Shown here: positions 3,036 to 55,552 of the stretch, piece by piece
Layout: each line of letters starts with the position of its first letter
Numbering within the stretch: position 1 is the first letter of the stretch
Assembly: GCA_036362985.1 (NCBI GenBank)
Contig: JAYGXS010000005.1
Span: 1,959,361-2,023,360, forward strand
From: Ligula intestinalis
Taxonomy: Eukaryota; Platyhelminthes; Cestoda; Diphyllobothriidea; Diphyllobothriidae
Direction of reading: 5' to 3'
Length of the DNA stretch: 64,000 nucleotides
Notes under the pieces: generated by a model
What the model saw: the letters and a program-made list of their open reading frames with translations, nothing else
Database searches by the model: none
Told to the model about the DNA's origin: nothing
Translations under genes and position numbers: made by a program

Positions 3036-3506
3036 TATGACCCAATGCGCCAAATAACGCCGACCCGATTACCGTCTTCCGTATCCTGATCTGGCCCCCG
3101 TGTTGGTCCAGTGCATCTACCGCGCGGCCCGTTTAGGGGGCCAAGAAAGACACACACAGAGATTCGAAGTAAAGCGCTTTGGCGGTTTCAATGTTGCCAT
3201 GAGACGGGCACCTGGGGCTCCAAGAGCAATGCAGTGGATGGACAGGTGTACAGCTAAAAGGTGTGTGACCATCGAATTCAGTGAAGTACACCAAGTGCAC
3301 CAATGGGTTGGTGCAGAAGATGACAGCCTCAGGGGATAGATTAGAGTAATCGCGGACATACTTAGCGCCAACGACACCCCTCACCTTCGGTCGGAGTCAA
3401 GAAGACTAAACGCGACCTGGCAAGCCAGGAACACCGCCTGACGTAGTCTGAAGTGATAGAAGGTTTTTGTTATCTAGGAGGTTTAGAAAATTTGCATAAT
3501 TTGGTC

Positions 3507-3738
3507 GACCCAATGGTGAAGAAAAAACTCACGGCATTCTGTGGAATTTGAATCAGCATAGAAGGGAAGACCTTTATGCGAAGCGGGCGGGTAAAATCGA
3601 TTCAAGTGTGATTAAAATCATGGTGCTAGACCTGTAGCTCAACTGGTAGAGCATTGGCTTAGTGTAGAGGTCTTCCCCGCTATACGGGTGTGAATCTCAC
3701 CGAATGCCGCGAGTTTTTTTTCGTTCTACAATTGGGTC
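3507..3738 (+). mobile_element. foldback element with apical tRNA-like sequence (copy 1)
   Basis: The left arm (3507-3573) and right arm (3668-3738) are imperfect reverse complements. Matching blocks are gacccaat/attgggtc, ctcacggcattc/gaatgccgcgag and ggaagacct/aggtcttcc. The loop contains a tRNA-like sequence on the plus strand with a textbook A box, TAGCTCAACTGG at 3635-3646. A degenerate B box lies near 3686-3697, partly in the right arm. No catalytic protein is encoded, so it would be non-autonomous. The arms are the most diverged of the three such elements in this window. Confidence 0.6.
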
Positions 3739-4904
3739 AAATAAAATAAAGTAGCCTTTTGCGCTGCTGCTACTGCACTACCCCTCAAAGCTTAGTCCAA
3801 ACTTTTTTAGCCTATTGCAGTCTCAGCAACACTGTTGTCCTCTATTACCGGTACTAGTAGCCCACCTATTTAGAAAGATGGTCTCACCTCCGACTAATGG
3901 TAGCGTTAGAGATAGCACAAGTTCTACTACACTTATTACTGACATGTGGAGATATGAGCTCAGAGTTGACTCTAATGACTACTCTACAAACGGTATATTA
4001 TTGTCCAAATGCTAATCACTATTACATCCCACAGATTGGGAGTGCATACTGGGTGCGACTCCTTAAAAAGCATACACAGGCAGTACTAATATTATACTAA
4101 GTACTGGCCTTAGTAAACACGATTACTTGAATTAGCACTTCTTGCATAGGCATGTAGGTGTATCGGCATTACCTTAGTGCGTACAGCTCCATGGATAGAG
4201 ATGAGAGTGCGTAAACCATGACAAACGCGGCCTTGCGCATGACCCTAAGCATATGCTTACCCAAAATAATCAAATCCAGATTCACACTCCCTGTTAAAAC
4301 CAAGGGGATATGAGCCCTAACGTTGGCTAAACCAGCGTCACCTCTGATAAATGGTGACGTCAGTGCCAGCACCAATAGTACTAGACCTCCGGTCGTGATT
4401 TAGGGGATATGAGCCCAGTGCTGACTTAATCAGCGTCACTTCTGACGTACAAAACAGTCAGTACCAGTACCAACAATTACTATCACAAAGTTGCACCCTT
4501 GTACGTAGTATAAGAAGTAAGCAGTGCCAGTCCTGGTTTACCTAAGGCTGGCCCGACACCTACTATAGGTGAGTGAGGATAGATAGCACAGTAGCACCCG
4601 CGCAAAGTATACTGTCACTTTAAGACTAAATTAGGCGGTGTATTGGCTTGCATTTGATACAGCAGCCGCGTCGGACCCCGTCTAGCCTTCGAGACTCATG
4701 GGAGAAGGTGAAGAGTGCGGAGCCGCTAACTACGTTCTCTATAACTTAAAAATAAGCCCTGAGGCCGTCACCTCCTGTACCAACCTGTTGGTGCACTTGG
4801 TTGACCTCATCGAAACCGATGGGCAGACACACACTGCACTACTTACCCTCGCTTACCCTTAGTAGGTGTCGGGACAGGCCCAAGGAGACCGAGACTGATA
4901 TGGT

Positions 4905-5614: not shown

Positions 5615-5802
5615 TCAAAGTCCGAAAACATTTCCGCCTTGGCTATTACCTCATCATTTGAAGCGTCAATCCAGGACGCCCGAAGAGCCGTGCACATTCA
5701 TTATAATTTAAGCAGATAGACAGCTGTCTAAAGGTAGGAGACGAGATCCTTCTGCAGGCCTGCTCGTTTAGACAGATAGTACTGCCAGCAGAGACAAGAG
5801 AG

Positions 5803-5850
5803 ACTGGCCATTTCTGGCTTATTAGCCGTCGTCAGCCAGTCGTACGTTCA
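5803..5850 (+). repeat. isolated arm of the 7.7-kb foldback family
   Basis: The block ggccatttctggctt followed by agccgtcgtcagccagt matches the left arm of the foldback at 7653-7914. No opposite arm was found nearby, so this is a fragment. Confidence 0.55.
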
Positions 5851-6420: not shown

Positions 6421-7652
6421 CTTCACAATTGGGTTAATTGAATTATTTAACTCTGTCAAACCCATCCTCATAATCAATGGGACAATTGGTGTAAACACCA
6501 AATTTGCAAACCAGGATGTTTGGTGAGCAGACACAAGTCTGAAAGCACTGTGAAGATCAGCGGGTGAGTTTTGTCTAGAGTGAGGGAGGCTCTCGAAGCA
6601 CTGCCTAACTACGCAGTAGGTTTATATGCCTCCTCCCCCTTTCTTTCTCTCTCTCTCTATCTCGCCTAAGTGGCGGAGAGGACGACTGAAGCTCACTGGA
6701 AATTCGGAGATGGATCCCAGTGGCTGCAAAAAACTCCCCTGTTTTTTCCTGAGTGATAGGCAATATTTTACAGGCCCTTTGCGCATATTGCCGGACCAAT
6801 CCCTGCATATGCTGGTCTTACAGATGTTGGCCGAGGTGTTGACGAGGTCTCTCGGTACGCTTAGGACAAGGATGCAGTCAGAGCAGAGGCGGATTAGCAT
6901 CAGCTCGGTACTACTGACGGCTGTCTTTAACGGCGACCCCGTCTCGTATATTACCCCTAGACAAACTGGGACTGTCCGCCCAGTGAGTATTTTTTCGTGA
7001 AAATAGCAGACTATTATGGTTTGCGTGGTGGGTTGGTCGCACTCAAACCGTGGTGAATACGAAGATCGAGCGGGGCCACGAGCGTTTGCTATCAGTGAGA
7101 GTATTTGCACTGGGGAGGGGGGGGGGATTGGTCGGCATTGCTCCGTGGTTTTGAATTTTTGCAGGTTTCCAGTTTTGTCTTTGTTTTGAAAGCCGTTATT
7201 CACCATTTTTATGACAGAGCAGCGTGCCTTAGGGTTATGCATGCAAGTCTTTCTACGATTTTTGCTTGATTCCCAGGCAGTCGAGTACAGGATCGGTTAC
7301 CGAGGCGCGCAGTATGGGTGGATGTAGAACACACTCAGTTATGGTGTCATCAGGGTGCCGTCATTCTTTTGTAGCAGAGATGGCGACTACTGGAGACTTT
7401 GGTGTTCGCCGGAAGATCAAAATCAGATAAGGTGTGCAGCTACGGAAGGTATTACAGCACTAAAATCACTTAGTAGGCCTTGCCGCGCTTACTGATCAAG
7501 GTGCAAGCTAGGCAACTATCAATACCATGAACGCAGGGCAGAAACGAAGTCTATTTGCAGTTAGTTACTCAGTGACTAAGGCCAAATTCTGCATGGAGTT
7601 GGGTCTGAAAACGCCAGTGGCAGCTTTTGATCGGAAACACATAATGTTTTGG

Positions 7653-7914
7653 AATGGATTCGACAAAGCGAAATGAGATCGGATTGACCATTTCTGGCTT
7701 TTCAGCCGTCATCAGCTAGACAAACCCAATCTTAAGGATCGAAACCTCCAAAATTCGAGCCCGGGACCTTTGGTCACTGAGTTTACCACTCTACCCTTGC
7801 ACCACGGATTCGAATCTTGGGAGTTCCGACCCTTAAGTTTGGGTATGACTGGCTGATGACGGATAAAAAGCCAGAAATGGCCATTCCGATCTCACTTTGC
7901 TTTGTCGGATCCAT
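7653..7914 (-). mobile_element. foldback element with apical tRNA-like sequence (copy 2)
   Basis: The left arm (7653-7760) and right arm (7806-7914) are reverse complements at roughly 80% identity by eye. Shared blocks include ggccatttctggctt, gtcatcagc and cgacaaagc. The apex holds a minus-strand tRNA-like sequence with A box TGGTGCAAGGG (7794-7804) and B box GGGCTCGAAT (7753-7762). Arm fragments of the same family recur at 5803 and 47,150. No protein is encoded. The architecture matches the elements at 3507 and 19,357 although arm sequences differ. Confidence 0.7.
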
Positions 7915-8399
7915 TACATCCCATCCTACTAGTTATTACGTCACTGCCTGCTTAGGCTCTAATGTGAGCTCCAGAGCAAAAACGCAAATTGATTGTTCCA
8001 TTACCAGCTCGGCGATGCCCACATCTTATAATGTTTTTGTTGGGTTACTGACAGGAAGAACCAGTATACAAGCGTCCTCCGTAGCAGGCTTTGCTGGGTC
8101 AAACCAATCATTTGAGAGGTTTTGTTTTGATGCAACATGTGCTCCGAAAGTGGCCAGAAGGACTAAGTCAAACTGGCGTAGGCGCAGAAAGCTCACGTCA
8201 GGTCACACAGGACTGTTCGTAATGCTGTTTCACCATATCGCAATTCTACTTGGCACTGCTAATATCGTGCTTAATGTAGCCGACCTCAAGCTTATCGCAA
8301 AGCATATTTCTCCACGCATGGTACTCTGTGATTGTGTATCTGGAGACAGAATAGGGGAGAGGTTCAAGAAGCCCTTTAATGTTCGGTGGACTGCGCCGA

Positions 8400-18733: not shown

Positions 18734-19356
18734 ATGGGCAGCAGGCAGTAAAGCAGCTGCCTTCTGCCAAGAAGTGAGTAAGTAGTAATGCGTCCGCTCG
18801 CCCCACCGTTTAGGCGGTTCAGTGCAAAATCCAGGTTGGCGCGATTACACTGACACACTCGCGTTCAAGCCCTAGCTTCCATATTCACCCCCCTTAACCC
18901 CCTTCCTTTCTCGACGCGCACACAACCTTTGGCGCTGAAATCGCTCTCGGTCGCTGCCATAAACGCAGTAACCGTGAAGCCATTGACCTACATTCACTAG
19001 TCCCCACCCTCCCCTCCTAAACCTCTCCTCATCCAAGCACAGCAGGCTTTCAAACAGCTGCCTTCTGCCAAGAAGTGAAAACGCTCCCCTCTTCTAAGAC
19101 ACCCAATTAGACAGTAATGCGCCCGTCCATCCCGCCATAGGCCTTTTTGTTGCACAGATCAGTTTGCCCAATTAAAATACTTTTCGGCCAGCCCTAAGTT
19201 GCGGTGAAACTGCCCACCGTTTAAACTTTTTTTCACATCCGAACCGAACACATTTCCATTATGCACGACAGTACCGATGACAGAAATGCTATCAACGCGA
19301 AACTTCTGCTCCCGATGGGCCTACGGCTTAAAGTATCGTTGCAAATATTTTATTCT

Positions 19357-19645
19357 AATTTTTATTACTGGCAAGAGTTAGGACTCTGAGATACGCGTAT
19401 TTCTGGGTCATTGCCCTTCATCGGTCAGAGTTACCTGATTTAATTATAGCCACAGAAACTGCCGCTACACCAGGTGGCTCAGTGGATAGGACGGTCGTCT
19501 CTAGCTCACTGGTCCCGGGTTCAAAACTCGAGTGTAGCGGCAGTTTCTGCGGCTATCCTTGAATCGGGTTACTCTGACCGATGAAGGGTAATGACTCAGA
19601 AATACGCGTATCTCAGAGTCCTAACGTTTGCCAGTAATAAAAATT
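19357..19645 (+). mobile_element. foldback element with apical tRNA-like sequence (copy 3, best preserved)
   Basis: The left arm 19,357-19,470 and right arm 19,532-19,645 are each 114 bp and near-perfect reverse complements, sharing aatttttattactgg, gactctgagatacgcgtatt and gccgctacac among others. The 61-bp loop carries a plus-strand tRNA-like promoter pair: A box TGGCTCAGTGG (19,475-19,485) and B box GGTTCAAAAC (19,518-19,527). An 8-bp direct repeat, cttaaagt, lies at 19,327-19,334 and 19,651-19,658 and could be a target duplication, although 22 bp separate it from the left arm. No protein is encoded. It sits just upstream of the Helitron. Confidence 0.85.
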
Positions 19646-19849
19646 GATAACTTAAAGTTGGCGAGTAACATAATTGTTTCGTTGAGTAAAAAAGTGGAAG
19701 TGTTTACAAATTTGCCAGACGAAACAAGCCAGGATTGGTGAATCCTGAGCGAGATCGGAGTACACCCATGTACTTATATTTTATGCTTTTACTCAATGCT
19801 CCCATTCGTTTGCAGGTTCTACCTTACTGGAAAGGAGACAAAATACAGC

Positions 19850-22837: not shown

Positions 22838-22854
22838 GGATTCTACATCGTCAT

Positions 22855-24571
22855 CAATTCCTGGCCAATATATGTACCTCCGGGCCAGTTGTTTCATACG
22901 GGTCATGCCTTGATGTCCGGCGTGGAGTTCTCGTTAAACCTGTTTTTTTATGTCTAGCTGGGATCACCACTCTGCCGTCATACATGATGCACTCTTTGGT
23001 TATGTGCAAGTGATCCTTCCGTATTTTGAAGGGCTTTATGGCTGGGTGTATCTTGTCTTCCCTGGGCCAAACCATCCGTATAAAGTCCTTTACCTGACAT
23101 AATAAAGGATCTGCTGCAGTGGTTGCCCTGATGTGTTGGGCTGTGAGAGGTAGCTGTCGGATAACACTTCTAAACTCGTCGTCGTCTTCTATCAAAGTGC
23201 TTGCGACCAAAATGTCCTCCTGGTGTTCGTCACCTCCACTCAGTCGTGATAAAGTGTCTGGAGCTCCAAATGTCTGAGTGGGCACGTACTGGATTGTGAA
23301 GTCATAACTCAGGAGAATATTACTCCATCGTTGTATCCCCTTAGCCGCATACTGCGGCACACTACGATTCGTGCCAAATAAAAATGTAAGTGGTTGGTGA
23401 TCGGTGTGAAGCGTAAAGTGTCTTCCGTAAATGAATTATTGAATCTTCTGTACTGCGAAGATAAGTGCCAGGGCCTCTTTCTCGATTTGACTATAGTTTC
23501 TTTCTGCTTTTGTGAGTGACCGGGTGGCATGCATCAAGGGCAGGATGTTTTCATCGGTTCCTTTCTGAAGAAGGACGCCGCCTAGCCCATACTCAGATGC
23601 ATCCACTTGTACTATCGTTTCTTTGTCGGCTTCGAAACGTGAGAGCACAGTCGACTCACTAATCTTCGCCTTTATTTTTTCAAAGGCATCTTGACAGTCA
23701 GGGGACCATTCAAATTTCACATCGTTACAAAGTAGCCGGTTTAAAGATGGCTTTAAACTATTTAGTCCCGCAATGAATGGGGAGTAGTAGCTGACCAGGC
23801 CCATAAATGCTTGTAGCTCTCGAACATTTTTAGGTACCATCACATTCTTTAATGCGTCAACTCTCTCTGGATATTGTGATCGTCCTGCCTCGCTTACCAC
23901 AAAACACAAGTAGTGAATTTCTTTTTGTAGGAACTCGCTCTTTTCCATGTTGATTTTTAGGCCACAGTCAATGAGATTTTCCATGACCTTGTCAAGTCTC
24001 TCGAGCAACTCCTCGTCCGTACGACCGACAACCAAATGTCATCCAGATATGCCACAGTTCCAGGGATATTTGTAAGCATGGTGTCCATTAACTGCTGAAA
24101 AATACTATGTGCCGTCTCGATGCCATAATTTAGGCGGGTATATTTGAACAACCCCTTATGTGTGTTAATCGTCAGCATTTTTTGCGCTGCTTCATCAACT
24201 AGTAACTGAAGGTACGCCTCTGAAAGGTCAGACCTCGGGAAAACCTGCTTTCCATTAAGGGTGGCAAAAATGTGTTCTACAGTCGGCAAGGGGTAGTGAT
24301 AGTCTTCCAATGCGTCACTCAGCCCGGTCGAGTAGTCTGCGCATAGTCTTATTCTACCGTTAGGCCTCTTAACGGTGACAACGGAAGCAGTCCATGCTGA
24401 GTAATTTGTGGGACAGATTATGCCTTTCTGCTGCAAACGCTCCAGTTCTTCCTCGACCGCTGTTTCTACGGCAAATGGGACGCGTCTAATCTGTCTAAAG
24501 ACTGGTTTTTTCCCAGGCTTTACCCTCAAGCTTACTGTAGTCTTTGTATACGTTCCGGCTGACATCTCCAT
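22855..24571 (-). pseudogene. gypsy reverse transcriptase, RNase H and integrase zinc region
   Basis: Reading right to left: FRQIRRVPFAV, CADYSTGLSDALEDYHYPLP and LPTVEHIFATLNG lead to the catalytic YLDD at 24,050-24,039. The frame breaks just after YLDD and continues as VVGRTDEELLERL, LKINMEKSEFL, FMGLVSYYSPFI, then the RNase H motif VDASEYGLGGVLLQ. A stop near 23,437 separates this from HTDHQPLTFLF-type RNase H sequence and the connection region with DTLSRLSGG. The integrase zinc domain ends abruptly near 22,855 (VHILARN) where the foreign gap-flanking sequence starts. It is a recognisable Ty3/gypsy pol, inactivated by at least one frameshift and stops. Confidence 0.93.
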
Positions 24572-24598
24572 CTGCTTGGCATGCTTCTGCTTCAGGTC

Positions 24599-25341: not shown

Positions 25342-28300
25342 TGAAACCCAGCATGACCACAGGGACATTGTCTTGCGATGCAGAGACAATAGACTTCAAA
25401 GGATATATGAGACTCATCGCTCATACGACGCCTTACAATATCCTTTCATGCGTGTCAATGGAGAAGACGGTTACCACTTCGGCATACCTCAGGCTGGCAC
25501 CAATAAAACGGTGACTTGAAAAGCTTTCTACTCATATAATTTTATGCTTCAAAATAGGACTTACAACCTTCTTTTTCGATTCAACACGTTGTTTTTTTTC
25601 AGTTTGCTGTTGATATGTTTGCCAAAATGGAATCTGAACGTCTATGTTATTTCCGCACTACCAAGTAAGAGCTTTGTGGGGACAATTACATCCACCTACG
25701 AGACAACGTCCTAAATTACGGGGATAATATTGGTCGCTGTCAACTTCTCATCTTACCGTCAAGCCACACTGGGTCACCTCGCTATATGCATGCGAAAACT
25801 CAAGATGCTTTGGTTTACGTTAGAGGTTTTGGTCACCCAGGCCTATTTATTACATTTACCTGCAACCCTTCTTGACCTGAAATTGCTGCTGAACTGTTCC
25901 CCGGTCAAATTGCTAATGATCGACACGATTTATTGGCGCGGGTATTTCAGTTGAAGTTGAAAACCATGATGAAACTCATCACAAAATTTAAAATTTTCAG
26001 TCAGCGACGGTGTCATATGTATCCTGTCGAGTGGCAAAAGAGAGGATTGCCACACGCGCACATTTTGGTCGGGCTTCAGGAAAAATTGCATTCTCCTGAT
26101 GTTAAACAAATTCATATGTGCGGAGTGACCCGACCTGGCAGCTGACCCTGTTCTGTTTGAAACAGTCAAAACGCAGATGGTGCATGGTCCATGTGGTGAG
26201 CTGAACCCCAGCAGCCCTTGCATGAAGGAGGGGAAATGCACTAAAAAGTATCCCAAGCGGTTCATTGACACAACGCAGTCTGACACAGACAGCTACCTTC
26301 TGTACAAATGAAGACGGCCTGAGATGTGTGGGTTCATAGCTGTTGTCAATGTAAGCCAACACGGACGTGTGGGAATTGATAAACGTTGGATTGTGCCGTA
26401 CTGTCCCCTTCTATCAACTGTATTCAACGCCCACATCAACGTTGAATTTTGCACTTCTGTGAAATCTATCAAATACGTCTGCAAATACATTACAAAAAGG
26501 CTCCGATGCAGCCGTGTTTTCTCTCAACCACCGTTCACGCAGCGATGAGATTACTCAATAGGTAATGGGCCGATATATCAGCAGCAATGAGGCTTTCTGG
26601 AGAATCTTTGGTTTTGATATCTACAACCGATTTCCGGCCGTCGAACATTTAAGCGTCAACCTTGAAAACGGCCAACGGGTTAAATTTACGGAGAAATCCT
26701 TAGCGGATCAACTTCGAAATCTGAGGGACACGACCTTAACTGTCTTCTTCAAATTGTGCCAGCAAGATGTATTTGTCTGGACGCTTTGCTATGTTGATGT
26801 CACCTCCGACTACACTTGGAAACAACACACGTGGGCCCGGCGAAAGAAATGAATGGTGGTTGAAGTACATTCAGGAATCAAATGCTATTTTAAACTGGGT
26901 CGGATATACACTATTCATCCATCTTAACAAGAGTGTTTCTTCTTACGAATACTTCTTCACGAGGTTCGGGGTCCAACATCTTTGGAAGATCTCAGAATGG
27001 TGGATGGTGTTCAACTTACAGAGAAGGCTTCATGATGCATAGTTTGCTTGAAAATGACAATTATTGGGAGAATACCATTTCTGAGGCTGTTATTACTAAC
27101 ACTCCAAACTAACTGCATCGCCTTCTAGCTTTGTTGATTAAGAGTTGTAAGTTGGCCTGCCCTTTCAGCCTGTGGTTAAAGTTCGGAAATTGTATGTCTG
27201 AAGACTACCGGTTTCAGCTGCAGGTGCAAAATGGCGATGCTCACATCGGATTTAATTCCACCATCTTCAACATTGCCCTAATTTCCATTAAAGACATCTT
27301 GGTTGGCAAGGGTGGTGAGCTTCTTCATACGTACGGATTCCCTCTGCTTGACAGGAGCGTTGGAAATCAGCTCCCCACTGAACAACAGCGTGAGCTTTGC
27401 TACAATGTTACCGAGCTGGCAGCATACGTTTCTCTGAACAAACTAAGGCAACTGGTCGACGAACTGCACGCATTCAACACTATTCTTGACAGTATCAATG
27501 GTCGCAGTAAAGGTGATAATGTTTTCATTTCGGATGCTCCTGGTGGAACTGGAAAAACTTTCGTCCTCAAGTTGCTCCTTGCCGAACTGCGCAAAGACGG
27601 CAAAATTGTTCAAGCTGTTGCATCGGCTGGTATTGCAACGACGTTGCTTCCTGGCGGCAGAAATGGTCACAGTACCTTCAAGCTTCCCCTTAGGTAAGCC
27701 GACGATGGTACTGCAACATGCCAAATAAGCAGAGGAAGCGGTTCAGCTGAATTGCTGAAGCGATGCTCGGCAATAATTTGGGACGAGTGCACAATGGCAA
27801 ACAGAATTGCACTGGAAGCGCTGAATAGCACTCTGCGTGATATCACAGAAAAGACCGCTCCGTTTGGTGGCATCATAATGGTTTTATCTGGTGATTTTCG
27901 TCAGACTCTACCCGTGATTTAAAGGGGTATCAGAGGTAATCAGGTAAAGTCCTGCCTGTTATATTCACCACTATGTTCAACGGTTAAGCCGTTGGAACTC
28001 ACAATATCTTGAAGATATTGGTGAAGGTAAAATCGAAACCGAGGCAACCGGACGCATCCCCCTTGCTTTTGTTGCAACTTTGATGAGCAGTGGCGAAGAC
28101 CTAAGAGAAGAAGTTTTCCCTAACCTCCAAACCAATTTCTCCGGCATTGAGTGGCTCTGCGAAAACGGAATTCTGGCCCTCACAAACAAATTCGTCAATG
28201 CCATTAACGAGAGACTAACTCACCTTCTGCTGGGTGTGGAAAAACTGTACAAACTCTACGATTCAACAGTTGATCCCACAGACTGCGCTAATTATCTTAT

Positions 28301-35084: not shown

Positions 35085-37080
35085 TAAAAGTTTAAGGGAT
35101 TAAACTCATGAAGATGAAGCCTCCACATCATATTTTACCCTTTTGAACAAATTGACAATCCTTGAGAAGGTGGTTAATAGTCTTAGAGTGAAGATGGAGG
35201 AGCTGAAAAATGTCTCTCTATTTCTCCCTCGTGAGGAGAAACCGGCGATGCGTGAACTTTAGCGAGGAAACCTAACGTACGGAGGAGCAAAATCCCTCGC
35301 CGAAGTGTCTATGCACAAAAATGATCCGGCAGCCAGGGTGCTTGATAAAGTTGGTAGTCTGCCATGGACAGGGGAAACGGTCAACCCACTGGCTTCCAAG
35401 AGAAAGAAGAAGCGCTATCGGGCTCCCAAAAAAGGCCAGCCAAGCCCAAGTGCTTATATAAGTTGGCCGAGCTTGAGCACGAGCCAAACAATAAGGGCAC
35501 CTTCGCAGGCCAAAACAAACATTAGCGTTGAACCTCGGAGCGAATCTGTCCTAACAAACCCTAGAGAATCAGAAGGGGACAACAGTCGGAAGGTGACTAC
35601 CACTCGTATAAACTGCATAGTCATAAAAGGCGTGACAGAAGGTACTTCCGATACCACAAAATGAAGATTAGAAGAGGACAGGAAGTTATTTAAAGAATAT
35701 CCGAAATTCCTCCTAAAGGGTGAGGAGAAAGTCAAAGTTCTAAAGGCATTCCGAATGGGCCGTATAACAGAATCAAAAGATGAACAACGCCAACCAAGAC
35801 CTTTGAAGGTTGTTCTGTAGAGTGAGGCTGAGGTCCAGCTATTGTTAAGCAGGAAACCAATACTTAGATACTCACACCCGACGGTTTTTTTTAAGATGAA
35901 TTTTTCCCCGCGGAGCGGGAGAAATGGAGGTTGCTAAAAGTAGAACTTCACAGGAGATGTGAATTCTGAACGGGGAGATCATCCATGTTCCGAGGTCACT
36001 CCTTTGGAGAAATTCGATAACACTAACGGCATAGTTGGGATAGACAACAGACCATCTCCATCAGCACCGACAGCTCCCTGCATGCCATCTCACGCAAGAG
36101 GCAACCGCCTGAATAAAGTGGTGACTAAGTCTAAATTGAGCTTTCTTTACACTAATGTCCAAAGTCTTCCCTCAAAAATTGATGAACTCAAGGCAGTTCT
36201 TTTGGAGCGGAAACCTGATGTAGTTGCCATAACGGAAACATGGCTAAAAACAGAAATCGCATATTCGGAGATTTTGATTCTAGCATACCAGCTTTTCCGC
36301 AATGACCACCTAAACCGACAAGGAGCTGGAGTTGTCGTGTATGTCAGAGTATGAGTCCGTCTGGTTTAAGATCAAGAAGGCGAATTCACATAACCTTGAA
36401 TTCCTGGCCATTTACCGGCCACCAAACATTCTGAGTGGAGCCGACGACTCGCTCCGTGGTCTGTGAAAGAAGCTGCTAGCCACCAGGAGGTTCTCATCGT
36501 TGGTGACTTCAACGCCCCTGCAATTGAATGGAACAACCTGACAGTGGCGGCGGAGTCAACTTACTTTAGTTCCAAACTAATGAATCTCACGCTTGACCTA
36601 TCTCTAGTTCAGAACGTTAAGGGCACAACCATATTTCAAGAAAACCAGCGAGCTACTTGTTTGGATCTCATTTTCACGAAGGATTCATCCTACATAGATG
36701 AAGTGCATTCAAGTGCTCCGCTCAGTAAGGGTGACCATACGACGCTAATGTGGGATTGCTCACTCCATACTGAACGGCTGAGGAAAACGGAGGACCAGCC
36801 AAACATATGGAAGGCAGATCTCAATTCAATGCAGAATGCACTTCCGTCCGTGAATTGGGACTGCCTACTCAAAGGGGATCCGGAGGAGGATTGGAGATCA
36901 CTCAAGAGGGTTGCATCAGATCTGATTAAGCGCTTTTGTCCGGTGAAAGTACACAAGACGACTAGTCGTCATACCTGGTTGACTAGAGACCTTAATAGGC
37001 AACTGGTTGGCGTTGTTCATCTTTTGATTCTGTTATACAGCCCATTCATATTCACCAACATATCATCGTTTTTAAAATAG
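35085..37080 (+). pseudogene. LINE ORF1 and endonuclease, 5' part of a CR1-like element
   Basis: Residues LLNKLTILEKVVNSLRVKME (35,140-35,200) look like a coiled coil. A basic KRKKKRYRAPKK stretch follows, then an RRM-like segment INCIVIKGV with FPKFLLKG-type and RPLKVVL blocks. These form a LINE ORF1 interrupted by stops. ORF2 begins with LSFLYTNVQSLPSKIDELK, PDVVAITETWLK and NRQGAGVVVYVR. After a break it reads VLIVGDFNAPAIEWNN, CLDLIFTKDSSYI and SKGDHTTLMWDC. These are the catalytic blocks of an apurinic endonuclease, in order to the SDH-like motif (here GDH). No RT follows, so the element is 3' truncated or broken by the next insertion. Confidence 0.85.
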
Positions 37081-37707
37081 AAGTCAACACTCCCTGAAGC
37101 GCATGGTGAACTAAGGAGGAAGCAGTGGAAAAAAACTCCTAACATTAGAGCTGGAGCAGAGTTCAGCGAACCCCCGCTTAAAAACAAAACCTAAGAGAAA
37201 AAAACTGCTTCATAAAAATTAAAGGGGTTGGTTGAGAGGATTGATTGAAGTGCAAATGAGACATGACTGTTGATGAGAACGTATGAGGGTTGGAAACGCT
37301 TCTTGTGATTGGAGAAATCATATAACAGCAGAGGCTATCGTTCACCACTGTAACACCGCCTGACTGGCTTCATGATCAACAATCAGGGAAGTGAGACTGG
37401 AGGAGGCCATCGCAGACAGCAGGGTTGACAAGATGAGGGAATGGCAGAGGTCACCTGATTATCAACGAAACGCCAGAGATGTGACCTTCTGGACTGCGGA
37501 GTCCAGCGACGAGCTGGCGAAAATAGCAAAACTGCCATGAGCATGACTAAGGACCATGAAGCTTATCGTCAGGGTTGTAAAACGGAGAATGAAGAAACGG
37601 CGATGATGACTGGACAGAGAAGTGGACAAAACATCGTTGCAAATATCACTCAAAGGAGGAAGAAATAGACATGTTTGGAAAAAAAATTTGATATAAACAT
37701 AACCACC

Positions 37708-38238
37708 TCAGATACCAGGGGGACCCTTTTCAAAGTCAAAGAGTTGTGTGTTTGGGAAGGAGACGGATAACAAGGATTTTTTACCTTCCGAAGTTAAGTG
37801 TTTACGTAATTTGACTTTAAAAACTGCTAAGTTAGACAACAGCCTAATTTCGAGAGGAATATTATTCCAGAGGAAGGCATATTTGGAGGCAAAGAAGTGA
37901 GAATGGTTCGAAGTGGAGCTAAAGGGAGGGGGTGCAATAATCCTGGAGGAATTACGAGTGGTATAAGGTCTATCTGCGGGAATAAGAGCGCTGATTCGTG
38001 GAAGGTTAGGGGTAGAGTTAACGCGAAAGAGGAAACAGAGGCCCGCTTCGAGTCGTCTGACCCAAAGAAATGTCATGTTCGCTAACTGACATCCCTCCGT
38101 ATAAAAATTAGTGGATCGAGGAAGAGCGAATATTGTGCGAGTAAATACCCTCTGCACATTTTCAATCTTACCGCGGTCAGAAGCATTCATTGGACCAAAG
38201 AGGGGACAGCAATATTCTAGGATGGGTAGAACATTCAT
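37708..38238 (-). pseudogene. LINE family A C-terminal tail
   Basis: An open 176-residue frame starts LPILEYCCPLFGP and contains KIENVQRVFTRTIFALPR, RRLEAGLCFLFRV and YAFLWNNIPLEIR, ending FEKGPPGI-stop. It is the post-RT tail common in these LINEs and the reference for the copy at 17.76 kb. Confidence 0.85.
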
Positions 38239-38255
38239 GCGATACAGTTTTAACT

Positions 38256-39540
38256 TTATTTCCAGCAGGAAGAAATTGTGTGAGATAAAACCACATACCT
38301 GTGCAGCCTTCGCAGATATTCGATCCGCATGGGAGACAATGCTAGTTTATTTGTATAGCTTAGACCTAAGTCTTTTATAGTGGATCGTTCTAAAAGTGGA
38401 GTATTTTGAAAGACTAGGCGACGAGGAAGCTTGGTGGGACCGAAACACATGAAACTACACTTGGATGGAGAGAATTCCATCTGCCAGGTAGCACTCCAAC
38501 GTGAGAGTGTAAGTAGGTCCGCATTTATATTATCAACGCATATACCTGCCGTGTCCTTAGAAAATGAGTAAAGGCATTTGAGATCGTCTGCATAAATGAG
38601 ATTTTGTGAATTTTTTAAAACCGTCGAAATTTCGTTTATGTATAGAATGAAGAGTAAAGGACCCAAGACAGTGTCTTGAAAAACGCCACTCGTGATCAGC
38701 TGAGCAGTGAAGTAACTATCACCTACTAGGACCTTCTGGCTGCGGTTAGACAAGTAGGAACCGATGAAGTCAAGGAGAGGGCACGGATGCCAATGGCTTC
38801 CAATTTTACCAGAAGCCGTCTGTGCGGAACCTTGTCGAAGGCTTTGCTCAGGTCCAAGTAAATAACAACCATGGATTGCCGCTCGTTACGGAGGGGAGTG
38901 ACGTGGTTAAGAAAGGCTAAGTGACACGTCTCGCATGATCTTCGGGGTAGAAAACCATGCTGTGAGTCGCTTAAAAGCTTAATTTTTAGGCAAAATCGAG
39001 AATTTGAGTAAAAAGTATCTTCTCCAGAAGTTAAGCTAGTGCCGGGGTTTATGAACACCGCGGTAGTTATTTATGTCCGAACGAGATCCTGATGTAAAGA
39101 CTGGAAGAATAATTGATGTCTTCCAAGTGTCATGAAAGAAACCATTTAAGAGATAGACTGAAAATATACGGCTAAGTAATTTGGGAAAGGTTGGCATTCT
39201 TTTGATAACTGAATTGGGGATACCATCAGTTCCCGAAGAGTGTGAGTTTTTTTTTAGACAAAGTATATGCTAACGAATTAATTCTATGTAGAAATCAATG
39301 TTCCCGAGAGTATTGTCTGAGTATGGTGGAAACGACGGGACCGGTTCGGATTCTGTCGTAAAATGCTTCGCAAAGAAAGCATTGAATAATTCAGCCTTAT
39401 CAGACTCATCTAGTGCAAATGTTTTATTTTCATTCAGCAATAGAGGTATTTCAATTGCTCGTTTTGCGGAGGACCTACGACGAAACAGTTGTGCAACCGG
39501 TTTGCAGAGTTTGACTCGCTCAGGGCGCAAGATTTCCTGT
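38256..39540 (-). pseudogene. LINE family A reverse transcriptase core
   Basis: Blocks in order: ELFNAFFAKHF (39,400), then SDSQHGFLPRRSCETCHLAF, MVVIYLDLSKAFDKVPHRRL, SGVFQDTVLGPLLFILYINE and NLIYADDLKCLYSF, which carries the intact YADD active site near 38,600. LSRWSATWQMEFSPSKC follows. At least two frame changes (near 39,250 and 38,740) break the ORF. The motif order is that of CR1 and jockey RTs. Confidence 0.92.
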
Positions 39541-47149: not shown

Positions 47150-47225
47150 CTGGGTATGACTGGCTGCCAACGGCTAGTAAGCCGAAAATGGTCATTCCTG
47201 CCTCCCTTGTCGTTGTTGGCAATAC
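47150..47225 (+). repeat. isolated arm of the 7.7-kb foldback family
   Basis: gggtatgactggctgccaac followed by agccgaaaatggtcatt matches the right arm of the element at 7653-7914. Confidence 0.55.
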
Positions 47226-47620
47226 TATCTGCGAGAAGAATAAAACTCGATCGCTGGGACAATATGTTCATTCGTCTGACGTTTCGATATCTGTCGCGGC
47301 TTCGTCATCAGAGACATGAGTAGCTGCCTACAATACTAACTGGTACTGCTGATGCCAGGGCCGAGAAATGAGGCCTAAGGCAAAGCCGGGGTAGGAGAAG
47401 TGAGTTCCGTAAATGATCGGTGAACGTTCATCATCGAGGAAGGAGCTCCTTCAAACGGCCCCAAAAGGGAACCTCAGAGGAAGAAGGAACTGAGCCGCAC
47501 ACTTCTCTCAAAGGATCATTCGACCGTGGAACTCTTTGCCAACGTCTGTTTTACATTTATTCCCTGTATGTGTTCATTTACATTTACATTTGCCATACAA
47601 GCCTGGAAAACTTGGACAGT

Positions 47621-51349: not shown

Positions 51350-52277
51350 TCTCTCGCTAATTGGCATTGAGTAAGGTTGCAATGCTGATCATCACGTAGT
51401 CTATTCTGAAGTTATTTCAGTCACGATAGGATGCCGGCTTTTTAACGAGCTTCTTTCTGACCGTTAACAAAACGTTTGGACTGGAAAGAGTGGTTACTTC
51501 AGTAGTATGCAACTTTGTGATTGATTTTGACTGCTCTTATAACTTCAAATACATGTTATGGAAAAATAAACGAAAAAATTATTCCTTGTACTCGTTTGGT
51601 AGAAAATAAGGCCTTCTTTAAATTTCATACTTAAGGAAAGGGTATCCATCGGTTCTAAAAAAGTTTCTAGATTGCCGAATAATTTTGAAACCTACTTACT
51701 GCTACACTTAAATTCAAGATTCAAAAACTGCGCACTGTGTACATCCTGTTTAAGGAAAAGAACTTTTTCGTCTACGGTTTGAGGAAGAAGTCACATAGGT
51801 CTCATAAAATGACGCAATATATGCGGATCATGCTCCATACGTTAAAGGCAACATTAATAAATTGATGAACACCTCACAATCATAAAAAAGCTCATAATTA
51901 GACAATTTTTTAAAACCGTAAGATACCGCTTCATTAGGTCTAAAATTTAAAGAAGGCGTAATTTGTTAACAAACCAGTACAAGAAATATTTCATGCATGT
52001 TTTCCTTAAAATATATTTGAATTTATAGGAGCAGTCAAAATCAATCATAAAGATGCATACTACTGAAGTAGCCACTCTTTACGTTTTGTTAACGGTCAGA
52101 AAGAAGCTTGTTAAAAAGCCGGCATCCTATCGTGACTGAAATGACTTCAGAATAGACTACACGATAAGCAGTATTGTGAAACATCTTCTCCCAGGAAGAA
52201 ATTTGGAGGAAGCATATTTGCCATAGTTGCTTGCTTCAAATAAGCAGTATTATAACCTTACTCAATGCCAATTAGCG
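51350..52277. mobile_element. large AT-rich foldback element
   Basis: The outer block cgctaattggcattgagtaa at 51,354 recurs inverted at 52,254-52,277. The blocks gatgccggctttttaacgag and agtggttacttcagtagtat recur inverted at 52,118 and 52,060. Pairing continues inward to about 51,651 and 51,925. Arms are about 300 bp with a 270-bp AT-rich loop. No protein is encoded. It resembles a long-TIR MITE. A 64-bp insertion interrupts the right arm. Confidence 0.85.
52176..52239. mobile_element. 64-bp insertion related to Penelope-like termini, 12-bp target duplication
   Basis: ataagcagtatt flanks the insert at 52,164-52,175 and 52,240-52,251, and the left arm of the foldback lacks the insert. The insert contains ttctcccaggaagaaattt and gccatagttgcttgcttcaaa. 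These match the two outer edges of the Penelope-like element at 54,707-54,746 and 55,340-55,361. Confidence 0.8.
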
Positions 52278-52960: not shown

Positions 52961-53162
52961 GGTTAATTTCAGCAGCCGGCCGCCTGAGAAAGGCATTTTT
53001 GCTAGCAGACGTGACGAGGGTTCCCTAAAAAACAACACCCTAGCTTACTATAACATTACTTATTATTTATTTCGGTGTAGTTTTGTATGACGTATTTCAG
53101 TTATTAGTTTATTAGCCTGACTTATTATTTTTGGTTTAATTTAGTCTAGCTTAGTTTAGATA

Positions 53163-53950
53163 TACAGGGTGTCCCAGAAGTAACTGGCCCTTTTGATTTG
53201 CCGATAAATCGAAAACTATAAACGCTAGGATATTAAAACTTGTTGTATTCGAAAGAGAAACCTTTTTATTTTTGATTGGAGCTAGGTTTTGAATACAATG
53301 CCTTTTAAATGATGGCCGTGGTTGTTTCGGCAACTAAGGGTTCGTTTCTTTGGAGTTTCCACAACGCTCCTTAGTGTATCAGGCGATAGTTGTCTTATTT
53401 CAGAACAAATGCTGTTTTTAAGTTGTTGCAGATTTGTCGGATTTGTTACATAAACCCTTGACTTCAGGTATCCCCATAAGAAGAAATCGCGTGGGGTCAA
53501 ATCTGGAGATCGAGGGGGCCAAGGAATGTCACCAAATCGTGAAATCAAATGATTTGGAAGGCACTTATTTAACAATGTCGTCGTTTCTCTTGTTGTATGG
53601 GCCGTGGCTCCATCCTGTTAAAACCAAGTATTGCGTAAGCAATGTCTCTCAATTTCAGGAATAAGAAATTTACTAATCATAGTTCGGTATCTTTTACCAT
53701 TGACTGTTACTGTTGCGCCATCATTATTTTAAAAAAATTATGGGCCAATCACATTGGAAACAGTTATTCCGCATCACACTGTCGCACAAAGAGAATGCAG
53801 CGGCATTTCTTGAATTTCTCTTAGATTTTCATCGTAAAAAATTCTAGAAAGGGTTTTCTTTCGAATAAAACAAGTTTCAATATCCTAGCGTTTATAGTTT
53901 TCGTTTTATTAGCAAATCGAAAAGGTCAGTTACTTCTGGGGCAGCCTGTA
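53163..53950 (-). mobile_element. mariner/IS630-type DNA transposon remnant
   Basis: The element is 788 bp long and bounded by TA on each side. Its ends are inverted: tacagggtgtcccagaagta against tacttctggggcagcctgta, and pairing continues about 75 bp inward. The minus-strand frame has QDGATAHTTRE, then ISRFGDIPWPPRSPDLTP and FFLWGYLKSRVYV. The second and third catalytic aspartates are therefore present, separated by 36 residues. A stop precedes QDG and the N-terminal DNA-binding domain is missing, so it is non-autonomous. Family assignment within IS630-Tc1-mariner is not certain. Confidence 0.9.
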
Positions 53951-54429
53951 TAAACGTTCCCGTTCCAGGTATTTGCATGGATAAGGAAGAAGACTTGCGA
54001 TCCGGTGCTCAAAAATTCTTCTTTCTTAGTTTAAGTAGTTTCGTTTATATTTTATTAGTTAGTTATCTTATCGTAAACTACGGTGTTGCTTATAAGGGAT
54101 CCGCACTGAAGACGCTCTCGGCCTAGTGAGCGAGACAAAACTGCACATCCACAAGTTTTGGATCCTCCGTTTCGTTCAAGTCAACATAATGGCGTCAGTC
54201 CGATAAAGACAAGCTGGCAGCGTTAGTAGAAGGATGATTGGTCGTTTTGGAGCTATCTGTCCTCGAAAGGTCCAACCGAAAAACGCAAATTTTAGGCCCA
54301 CAGCCGCCCATGTTAGGAGTCGCCCTAATCGAATCAGCTGGCAGCAAAGCTGATGTCAGCGCGCAAGCACGCAGCCAGGCAGCGAGCGGCGCTCACGGCA
54401 TGTTATTGATCCGTCCACACGTGGCGCAC

Positions 54430-54560: not shown

Positions 54561-54741
54561 TTTACCCGAAATATGTTTTACCAAGAACACTAAAGAGACT
54601 TCTGCTCATTGCACTCTTCTTGTCGTGTTCTTCCTTGGGGAATCACACAAGGTGTAATGAGCGATGACAGCTCAGCTTTGACTATAATTACAACAACTTA
54701 AACACCTTTTCCCAGGAAGAAATTTGAAGCAAGCAAATATG

Positions 54742-54788
54742 GCAGAATTTATTCGATCAAATAAATTTCGTGACGGCTCGTCAGCTGC
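54742..54788 (-). ncRNA. candidate type I hammerhead motif, left arm
   Basis: Mirror copy of the motif at 55,296-55,342, here on the minus strand and therefore sense to the GIY-YIG frame. See that entry for the fold and its weak point. Confidence 0.4.
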
Positions 54789-55295
54789 GGCCCGTCTTTG
54801 CATGAATGAATAACAAGTGGGTTATAGCACAATTTGAATATCAACAAAATCGATAAAAGCAAGGTCAAATTTACGCGTAAGTGAACATTCATATTGTCAA
54901 CTTAACTCGGGAAAGGGCGGAAATTTGGGGGGGAACAACACAAAAACAAACAAAAGGTGACTTAATGTAGGCCTATGGACCCCAAGGCAGCTGTAGGTTA
55001 GCCACATGTTCTAATTGCTTACATAGGTCGGGTTTCTCCCGCCGTATGTAGGCTGCTTCCATGTAGCGTAATGTCCGGTTTGTTCGTGCTCGAACAAGAA
55101 CTCAGAAAGATTTTTTCGGATCGACAGAGTGACCACTGTCCAATAGATGTTTTGTAATAGAGGACCGAGGTACTTTGTTTTCTTGTTTAAAAAGCCAAGA
55201 GGGTAAATGTTCAGCTGCCCTGGTCGCCAATTGCCTTTGTTGATATACAAATTGTGCTATAACCCACTTGTTATTCATTCATGCAAAGACGGGCC

Positions 55296-55342
55296 GCAGC
55301 TGACGAGCCGTCACGAAATTTATTTGATCGAATAAATTCTGC
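55296..55342 (+). ncRNA. candidate type I hammerhead motif, right arm
   Basis: In order: GCAG (55,296), CUGACGA (55,300-55,306), GCCGUCAC, GAAA (55,315-55,318), a 7-bp hairpin AUUUAUU/AAUAAAU (55,318-55,337), U at 55,338 as the cleavage position, and CUGC (55,339-55,342) pairing with GCAG. Core boxes, helix I and helix III fit a type I hammerhead, which Penelope-like elements are known to carry. Helix II is weak: only its first G-C pair forms, then C faces A. Confidence 0.4.
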
Positions 55343-55552
55343 CATATTTGCTTGCTTCAAACCTAAACACCCCTGCTTAGTCGTAGCGTTATGGGAGATG
55401 ACTTTATGTAGATGCTAGATTAGAATGTGCACCTATCCATGCTCACTTATCCTGAATTTCAGGCATGTGCCGGGTAATGGGTGACGCTCGTCGTCTGTGA
55501 TCTTTTTATGGTTGACCGATTCATCAGATTGTTTTCTGAAGGTAGCGTTGTA

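Follow-up and report, generated by a model that had tools for sequence, protein, structure and literature searches.

We analysed the whole of a 64,000-nt stretch of Ligula intestinalis DNA (the window), in which three loci carry a repeat facing an inverted copy of itself. A scan of the 64 kb for inverted pairs (seed 10, length ≥16, distance ≤150) returned seven, three of which are these loci; the other four consist of short palindromes that overlap, and two of these lie within locus 1. The initial annotation had described locus 1 as two 114-nt arms around a 61-nt loop holding A-box-like and B-box-like sequences, and this description holds: the arms are 91% complementary and both sequences can be read in the loop, where by the Pol III box consensus we take them to be A and B boxes. 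It had also rightly recognised a common plan with different sequences at the two other loci (arms of 114 nt, 83% complementary and 41 nt apart at locus 2; arms of 63 nt, 75% complementary and 72 nt apart at locus 3), each with a tRNA-like part. Its limits for locus 1 (19357..19645) have to be revised, as the true insertion is 19357-19775, flanked by 12-nt repeats with 11/12 identity, and the right end reported before is an internal alternative end of the repeat unit. At locus 2 the flanking duplication is a perfect 9 bp, and its sequence occurs three times in the window against 0.69 expected.

Table 1 Coordinates of features at the three loci (window positions; u, position in the repeat unit; S and L, short and long 3' end).
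Feature	Position	Strand	Remark
Locus 1, left target-site duplication ATATTTTATTCT	19345..19356	.	Score 10; 11/12 identical to right copy
Locus 1, inverted repeat arms	19357-19470 / 19532-19645		
Locus 1, left arm: F1 u97 to S end (~u206), 5'-truncated	19357..19470	-	19361-19470 aligns to F1 at 91%; 19357-19360 extends the S end
Locus 1, right arm: F1 u34 to L end (~u337-339)	19469..19775	+	19469-19774 aligns to F1 at 93%
Locus 1, A-box-like TGGCTCAGTGG in loop	19475..19485	+	Read against the Pol III box consensus
Locus 1, B-box-like GGTTCAAAACT in loop	19518..19528	+	Read against the Pol III box consensus
Locus 1, putative hammerhead-like motif	19572..19618	+	Regular-expression match; predicted cut 19612/19613
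Locus 1, internal alternative (S) end position in right arm	19641..19645	+	
Locus 1, right target-site duplication ATATTTTATGCT	19776..19787	.	
Locus 2, left duplication ATAATGTTT	7641..7649	.	
Locus 2, inverted repeat arms	7650-7763 / 7805-7918		
Locus 2, left arm: F2 u35-192	7650..7807	-	Short outer end
Locus 2, right arm: F2 u79-194 (to 7920), then older-type long tail	7805..8027	+	
Locus 2, putative F2 hammerhead-like sequence	7847..7891	+	Partly decayed; by eye
Locus 2, right duplication ATAATGTTT	8028..8036	.	
Locus 3, left arm: F3 repeat	3497..3584	-	
Locus 3, inverted repeat arms	3522-3584 / 3657-3719		
Locus 3, right arm with tRNA-like part: F3 repeat	3585..3750	+	No target duplication recognised at the window copy

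A 339-nt unit with two alternative 3' ends

Searching the genome (644 Mb) with 19357-19645 gave at least 124 matches when 40 of 689 first-look candidates were scored, many of them consisting of the loop and right arm alone. In an alignment of 23 copies of this family (F1), conservation continues past both sides, repeating head-to-tail. The F1 unit, for which genomic copy L018 served as reference, is noncoding, 339 nt long and ends in GTACTAA, which the next unit adjoins in tandems. Its landmarks are an A box at u40, then a B box, a hammerhead-like core at u143 and an alternative end near u206. F1 has two alternative 3' ends, S (~u206) and L (u339), and its units are found solo, in direct tandems truncated at the 5' end, or with two such copies head-to-head.

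The F1 sample comprised 43 loci picked by likeness to the window copy, and is not a random one; with three duplicates removed, the remaining 40 loci gave 43 chains of at least 100 bp. Twenty-five of these were head-to-head, eight were direct tandem only, ten were solo and none was tail-to-tail (L005 and L010, split by a 25-bp gap rule, are counted in the direct-tandem-only and solo classes). One outer end was S (u202-219) and the other L (u337-339) in 24 of the 25 head-to-head chains, the sole exception being L022 (outer ends 339/325). By our own arithmetic the chance of at least 24 such pairs in 25 is ~8e-7 if S and L are independent and equally likely. The two outer ends are 133 nt apart in the unit, and the L ends showed neither poly-A nor a simple 3' repeat.

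The foldback apex falls at many different unit positions in F1 copies, contrary to the earlier placing of the promoter exactly at the apex; the apex promoter is a truncation accident where two 5'-truncated copies meet. The 10 solo and 8 direct-tandem chains among the 43 are without a left arm, apart from a few with a second arm too small for BLAST to pick up. One of these is L013, scored as solo: the preceding 22 nt are an S end, and GATTTTTGCTG precedes this end and also follows the copy. The initial annotation had itself named separate occurrence of loop and arms as evidence against its element, and in many copies the loop and right arm indeed occur without the left arm. The inverted repeat is real but probably an insertion product rather than a foldback element. 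What stands of the proposed mobile class is that all three loci belong to dispersed mobile repeat families; the foldback itself is not the element.

The same anatomy in two further families

Locus 2 has the anatomy of locus 1. Its unit (F2; reference L066) is 309 nt long and occurs also in direct tandem. Forty-eight F2 loci were fetched, chosen by likeness to the window copy, and after 8 duplicates had been dropped the 40 kept gave 45 chains: 30 head-to-head, 6 tandem, 9 solo and none tail-to-tail, making 0 tail-to-tail pairs in the 88 F1 and F2 chains. Judged by eye, 18 of the 30 F2 foldbacks (18 of the 20 resolved) pair a short with a long outer end, namely L031, L032, L036, L038, L040, L041, L064, L069, L070, L072 and L073 and, among older copies, L030, L034, L037, L039, L047, L048 and L057; the exceptions, also by eye, are L049 (short/short) and L077 (long/long-like). 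The end pair is not resolvable in the other 10 (L033, L035, L044, L045, L046, L050, L051, L056, L065 and L071, several beside N runs), and some outer ends of L044, L045, L065 and L071 are unreadable because N runs lie near the AT repeats at the foldback ends. F2 outer ends are 111 nt apart in the unit, and most young F2 copies are embedded in (AT)n.

The genome search with locus 3 (3497-3750) gave at least 53 matches with 40 of 1797 candidates scored. Six loci of this family (F3; L092-L097) were fetched because both orientations stand close together, and these relatives show the same anatomy. By eye, L092, L093 and L094 each have one longer and one shorter outer end, with AAATAACAAAA, AATATGCATGT and TTTATTTT, respectively, repeated at both sides; L095-L097 are less clear. 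A T-run adjoins the 3' side of the tRNA-like part in F3.

Duplications, apex overlap and shared variants

Target duplications were counted at a score of at least 8, with 600 mismatched flank pairs as the control. A duplication was found for 14 of the 25 F1 foldbacks, compared with 2.8% of control pairs, and the other 11 have no clear one. None of the 18 solo or tandem F1 chains, at least one of which (L013) has a short second arm, reached this score. The test is uninformative for F2 because its young copies sit in (AT)n. The arms mostly join through short microhomology: an overlap of at least 2 nt at the apex was present in 84% of the F1 foldbacks (n = 25) and 63% of the F2 foldbacks (n = 30), whereas simulated blunt joins reached it in 27% (n = 299) and 28% (n = 295) of cases, respectively. 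Arms of the same locus share more derived bases than arms of different loci, in F1 (0.33 versus 0.096; 21 pairs, 4 sharing none) and in F2 (0.24 versus 0.108; 25 pairs, 11 sharing none), to which subfamily structure could contribute. Given the one duplication, the apex overlap and the shared derived bases, both arms most likely go back to a single event and a single template lineage, while their start sites differ.

tRNA-like head and putative promoter

ARAGORN reported no tRNA in the window or among the relatives of loci 1 and 2 (n = 13), and tRNA genes in three of the six relatives of locus 3 (L093, L094 and L096). The 5' termini of the copies concentrate 6-24 nt in front of the A box, an interval chosen after the list of ends had been seen. 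It holds 14 of the 43 F1 ends outside u35-206 (expected 4.9, p 2e-4) and 12 of 25 F2 ends (expected 3.5, p 5e-5), with ends at u1 (5 in F1, 9 in F2) dropped as boundary effects. Such clustering would fit RNA starts from a tRNA-type promoter, and the A-box-like and B-box-like sequences suggest that Pol III may transcribe the units. The lack of TTTT in the sense strands of the F1 and F2 reference units has no significance, as 49% and 57% of shuffles, respectively, lack it likewise.

A hammerhead-like motif

Two of the three families, F1 and F2, probably carry hammerhead-like motifs, which the initial annotation did not mention, nor did it give the true outer ends. The order in F1 is ACTCTGA, CCGATGA, GGGT-AATG-ACCC, GAAA, the palindrome TACGCGTA, TC and TCAGAGT, and that in F2, in its intact-looking form, is GACTGG, CTGATGA, GGCT-AACA-AGCC, GAAA, the palindrome TGGCCA and CCGGTC. 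A further repeat family, F4, has GCTTGG-CTGATGA-AGGCTAATAAGCCC-GAAA, and L036 holds, inside another repeat, one copy whose stem II differs (GCCT-AATG-AGGC). The helices differ between these motifs but their pairing is kept, which argues for a real structure. Applied to 262 kb of loci, in which overlapping ones count double, a regular expression with rules written after the families had been seen matched 91 times; it had no match in a 2-Mb Markov control, and the motif of locus 1 is its only match in the window. By eye, no hammerhead was seen in the six F3 loci.

Rfam gave nothing in the window at gathering level and, at E≤5, no hammerhead in 12 F1 loci or in F2 itself across 20 F2 loci. The latter contained two weak Hammerhead_HH9 matches (24.9 and 19.9 bits against a cut-off of 52), both falling on the hammerhead-like motif of F4, a repeat next to F2; other Rfam matches were to miRNA-like hairpins and unrelated families. 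In the F1 and F2 motifs the helices are paired, but the core and stem II deviate: F1 has C at core position 4 in the usual hammerhead numbering, and the first pair of stem II is mismatched in F1, F2 and F4. Cleavage is predicted after u177 in F1 and after u159 in F2, and the S end lies ~30-40 nt past the predicted cut in both. Copy ends within 3 nt of this cut number one in F1 (u179) and zero in F2; with almost no ends there, the templates were therefore not just linear monomers produced by cleavage. PMC6155905 describes the hammerheads of Penelope elements as minimal forms without helix III, and the loop-less palindromes of the present motifs would fit that form.

Penelope-type genes in the genome

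At least 20 GIY-YIG matches above the cut-off were found in the genome with 150 of 2606 candidates scored. Three of the loci (L098, L099 and L101) are ~90-92% alike over shared stretches, and L100 has a different GIY-YIG frame. In L098 and L101 the GIY-YIG is preceded by reverse transcriptase (RT)-like frames, which we take from their motifs to be Penelope RT. A Penelope-type piece has 15 protein relatives, the named ones from Sparganum, Spirometra, Dibothriocephalus and Schistocephalus; one relative (P0001) has a single weak RVT_1 match, below its cut-off. Pfam did not recognise two RT-side pieces of L098, and two Penelope pieces had no match in the PDB. The 309-339-nt units contain no RT and GIY-YIG reading frame, which is present elsewhere in the genome, and no sequence is common to the units and the four GIY-YIG loci examined.

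Interpretation and alternatives

It is likely, in our judgement, that each foldback is a single insertion of a short noncoding retroelement, made in the way of Penelope-like elements. The best reading is that tRNA-promoter SINE/retrozyme families are moved by Penelope machinery. A tRNA-like promoter, presumably used by Pol III, would yield a transcript able to span tandem units, and a Penelope RT/GIY-YIG protein would cut both target strands. S and L would be two fixed internal RNA sites at which reverse transcription begins, each of them serving to extend one of the two cut strands, and both probably lying on a single RNA molecule. Each cDNA would then halt at a variable point, and a few nucleotides of microhomology would allow the two to be joined, leaving two head-to-head arms, one ending outward in S and the other in L, within a short target duplication. 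The template may be circular, multimeric or not cut at all, and the units may have ribozyme activity. If each priming site is used once per RNA, two-armed copies should nearly always be S/L. That Penelope machinery mobilises these tRNA-headed families, with one RNA primed at two internal sites, each used once and one per target strand, is a proposal for which we see an even chance.

A LINE could instead move a SINE by twin priming, in which a second internal priming inverts the 5' part; this also yields head-to-head inversions within one duplication and microhomology joins, and LINE reverse transcriptases are present in the genome (Pfam). Twin priming splits one RNA, however, and here the arms often hold the same unit stretch, both outer ends are fixed sites, and the L ends are free of poly-A or a simple 3' repeat; we regard it as unlikely. 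By snap-back, one target-primed cDNA would fold at its 3' end and copy itself. Head-to-head arms, short apex complementarity and shared variants would follow, and self-priming, on an antisense template, is favoured for Penelope palindromes in PMC3846280; yet identical outer ends are predicted, whereas 24 of 25 F1 foldbacks have two different ones, and we think it very improbable. Snap-back at the tRNA head was dropped once the outer ends proved unequal.

Two different ends are what a second, independent insertion next to an earlier one would give, and repeats are often nested here. A single duplication nevertheless encloses both arms, which share derived bases and overlap precisely at the apex, and tail-to-tail pairs are missing from all 88 chains, so that such coincidence is hardly credible. 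The design first proposed, a foldback or MITE-like DNA transposon centred on a Pol III promoter, has in its favour the long inverted arms around a tRNA-like loop at three loci. Its termini, though, differ in sequence (133 nt apart in F1, 111 nt in F2), many copies have a single arm only, the apex lies at varying positions, and direct tandems of units occur; we give it practically no weight.

Comparison with known elements

Penelope-mediated insertion, the reading we prefer, can be set against published systems, as described in the papers cited. Penelope inserts have adjacent inverted pLTRs, 8-10 bp duplications and an optional tail on one inverted pLTR (PMC3846280). A Penelope enzyme cuts both strands and starts their extension at two neighbouring sites within the RNA, which set the tail; its start site did not differ between strands, a dimer is predicted, and the later steps of insertion are still to be validated (PMC11167929). 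The present units resemble Penelope-like elements in their partial tandems, inverted 5'-truncated copy and short target duplications (PMC3846280, PMC11167929), and also in the tail at one outer end, the putative hammerhead motif and the AT-rich targets. Unlike those elements, they are 309-339 nt long, noncoding and tRNA-headed, share no sequence with the Penelope loci examined here, and have tails of 133 nt (F1) and 111 nt (F2) rather than 30-40 bp. The S/L pairing agrees with both PMC3846280 and PMC11167929 and adds a coupling rule.

Metazoan non-LTR retrozymes are similar in size (~170-400 nt), tandem copies, a type I hammerhead (putative in the present units), duplications of more than 4 bp and a suspected Penelope mover (PMC7229834, PMC7761336). 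Penelope-like elements are proposed as their movers in both papers and called a "strong candidate" in PMC7229834. The head-to-head S/L insertions and tRNA-like promoter boxes set the present units apart; the word "inverted" is absent from the accessible part of PMC7229834. Retrozymes seem to lack promoters according to PMC7761336, which leaves their transcription to read-through, whereas a tRNA-type promoter would explain the transcription of such elements. Schistosome Sm-alpha and Sj-alpha, compared by description, are likewise flatworm SINE-like elements with a hammerhead ribozyme and high copy number, Sm-alpha being tRNA-related, but no head-to-head structure is mentioned in the accessible part of PMC2770079. 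Short nonautonomous Penelope elements are mentioned without further detail for butterflies in that of PMC6685494, and in the incomplete open-licence literature searched no SINE or tRNA-headed element is named as Penelope-moved.

If correct, this interpretation would make Penelope and SINEs partners and would give a definite rule for how Penelope's inverted copy with a tail at one end arises. The many short insertions here would record both cDNA starts and the join, and so bear on how Penelope insertion is completed (PMC11167929) and on the mover of animal retrozymes (PMC7229834). The S/L pairing is a quantitative rule, testable on purified Penelope enzyme.

Other repeats nearby

The F4 repeat stands beside F2 copies at L031, L044, L049, L050, L058-L060, L064 and L072; it is abundant, carries its hammerhead-like motif and, like F1 and F2, apparently has two alternative ends next to (AT)n. 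Within the window, 5789-5845 (-) and 47151-47219 (+) match only the hammerhead-like part of F2 (83-84%), inside other repeats, and a second hammerhead-like motif with an ACGT palindrome was seen by eye close to the latter, at ~47265-47320 (-). An inverted repeat at 54723-55361, with 126-nt arms that are 99% complementary and 387 nt apart, does not belong to F1-F4, and a long one at 51380-52176 has ~290-nt arms in three pieces. Inverted termini bound 53161-53952, presumably those of a mariner-type transposon, which they resemble. Pfam identified retroelement remains (RT, RNase H, endonuclease and PIF1-like helicase) at 1878-2495, 22854-24595, 27113-27694 and 36400-38882.
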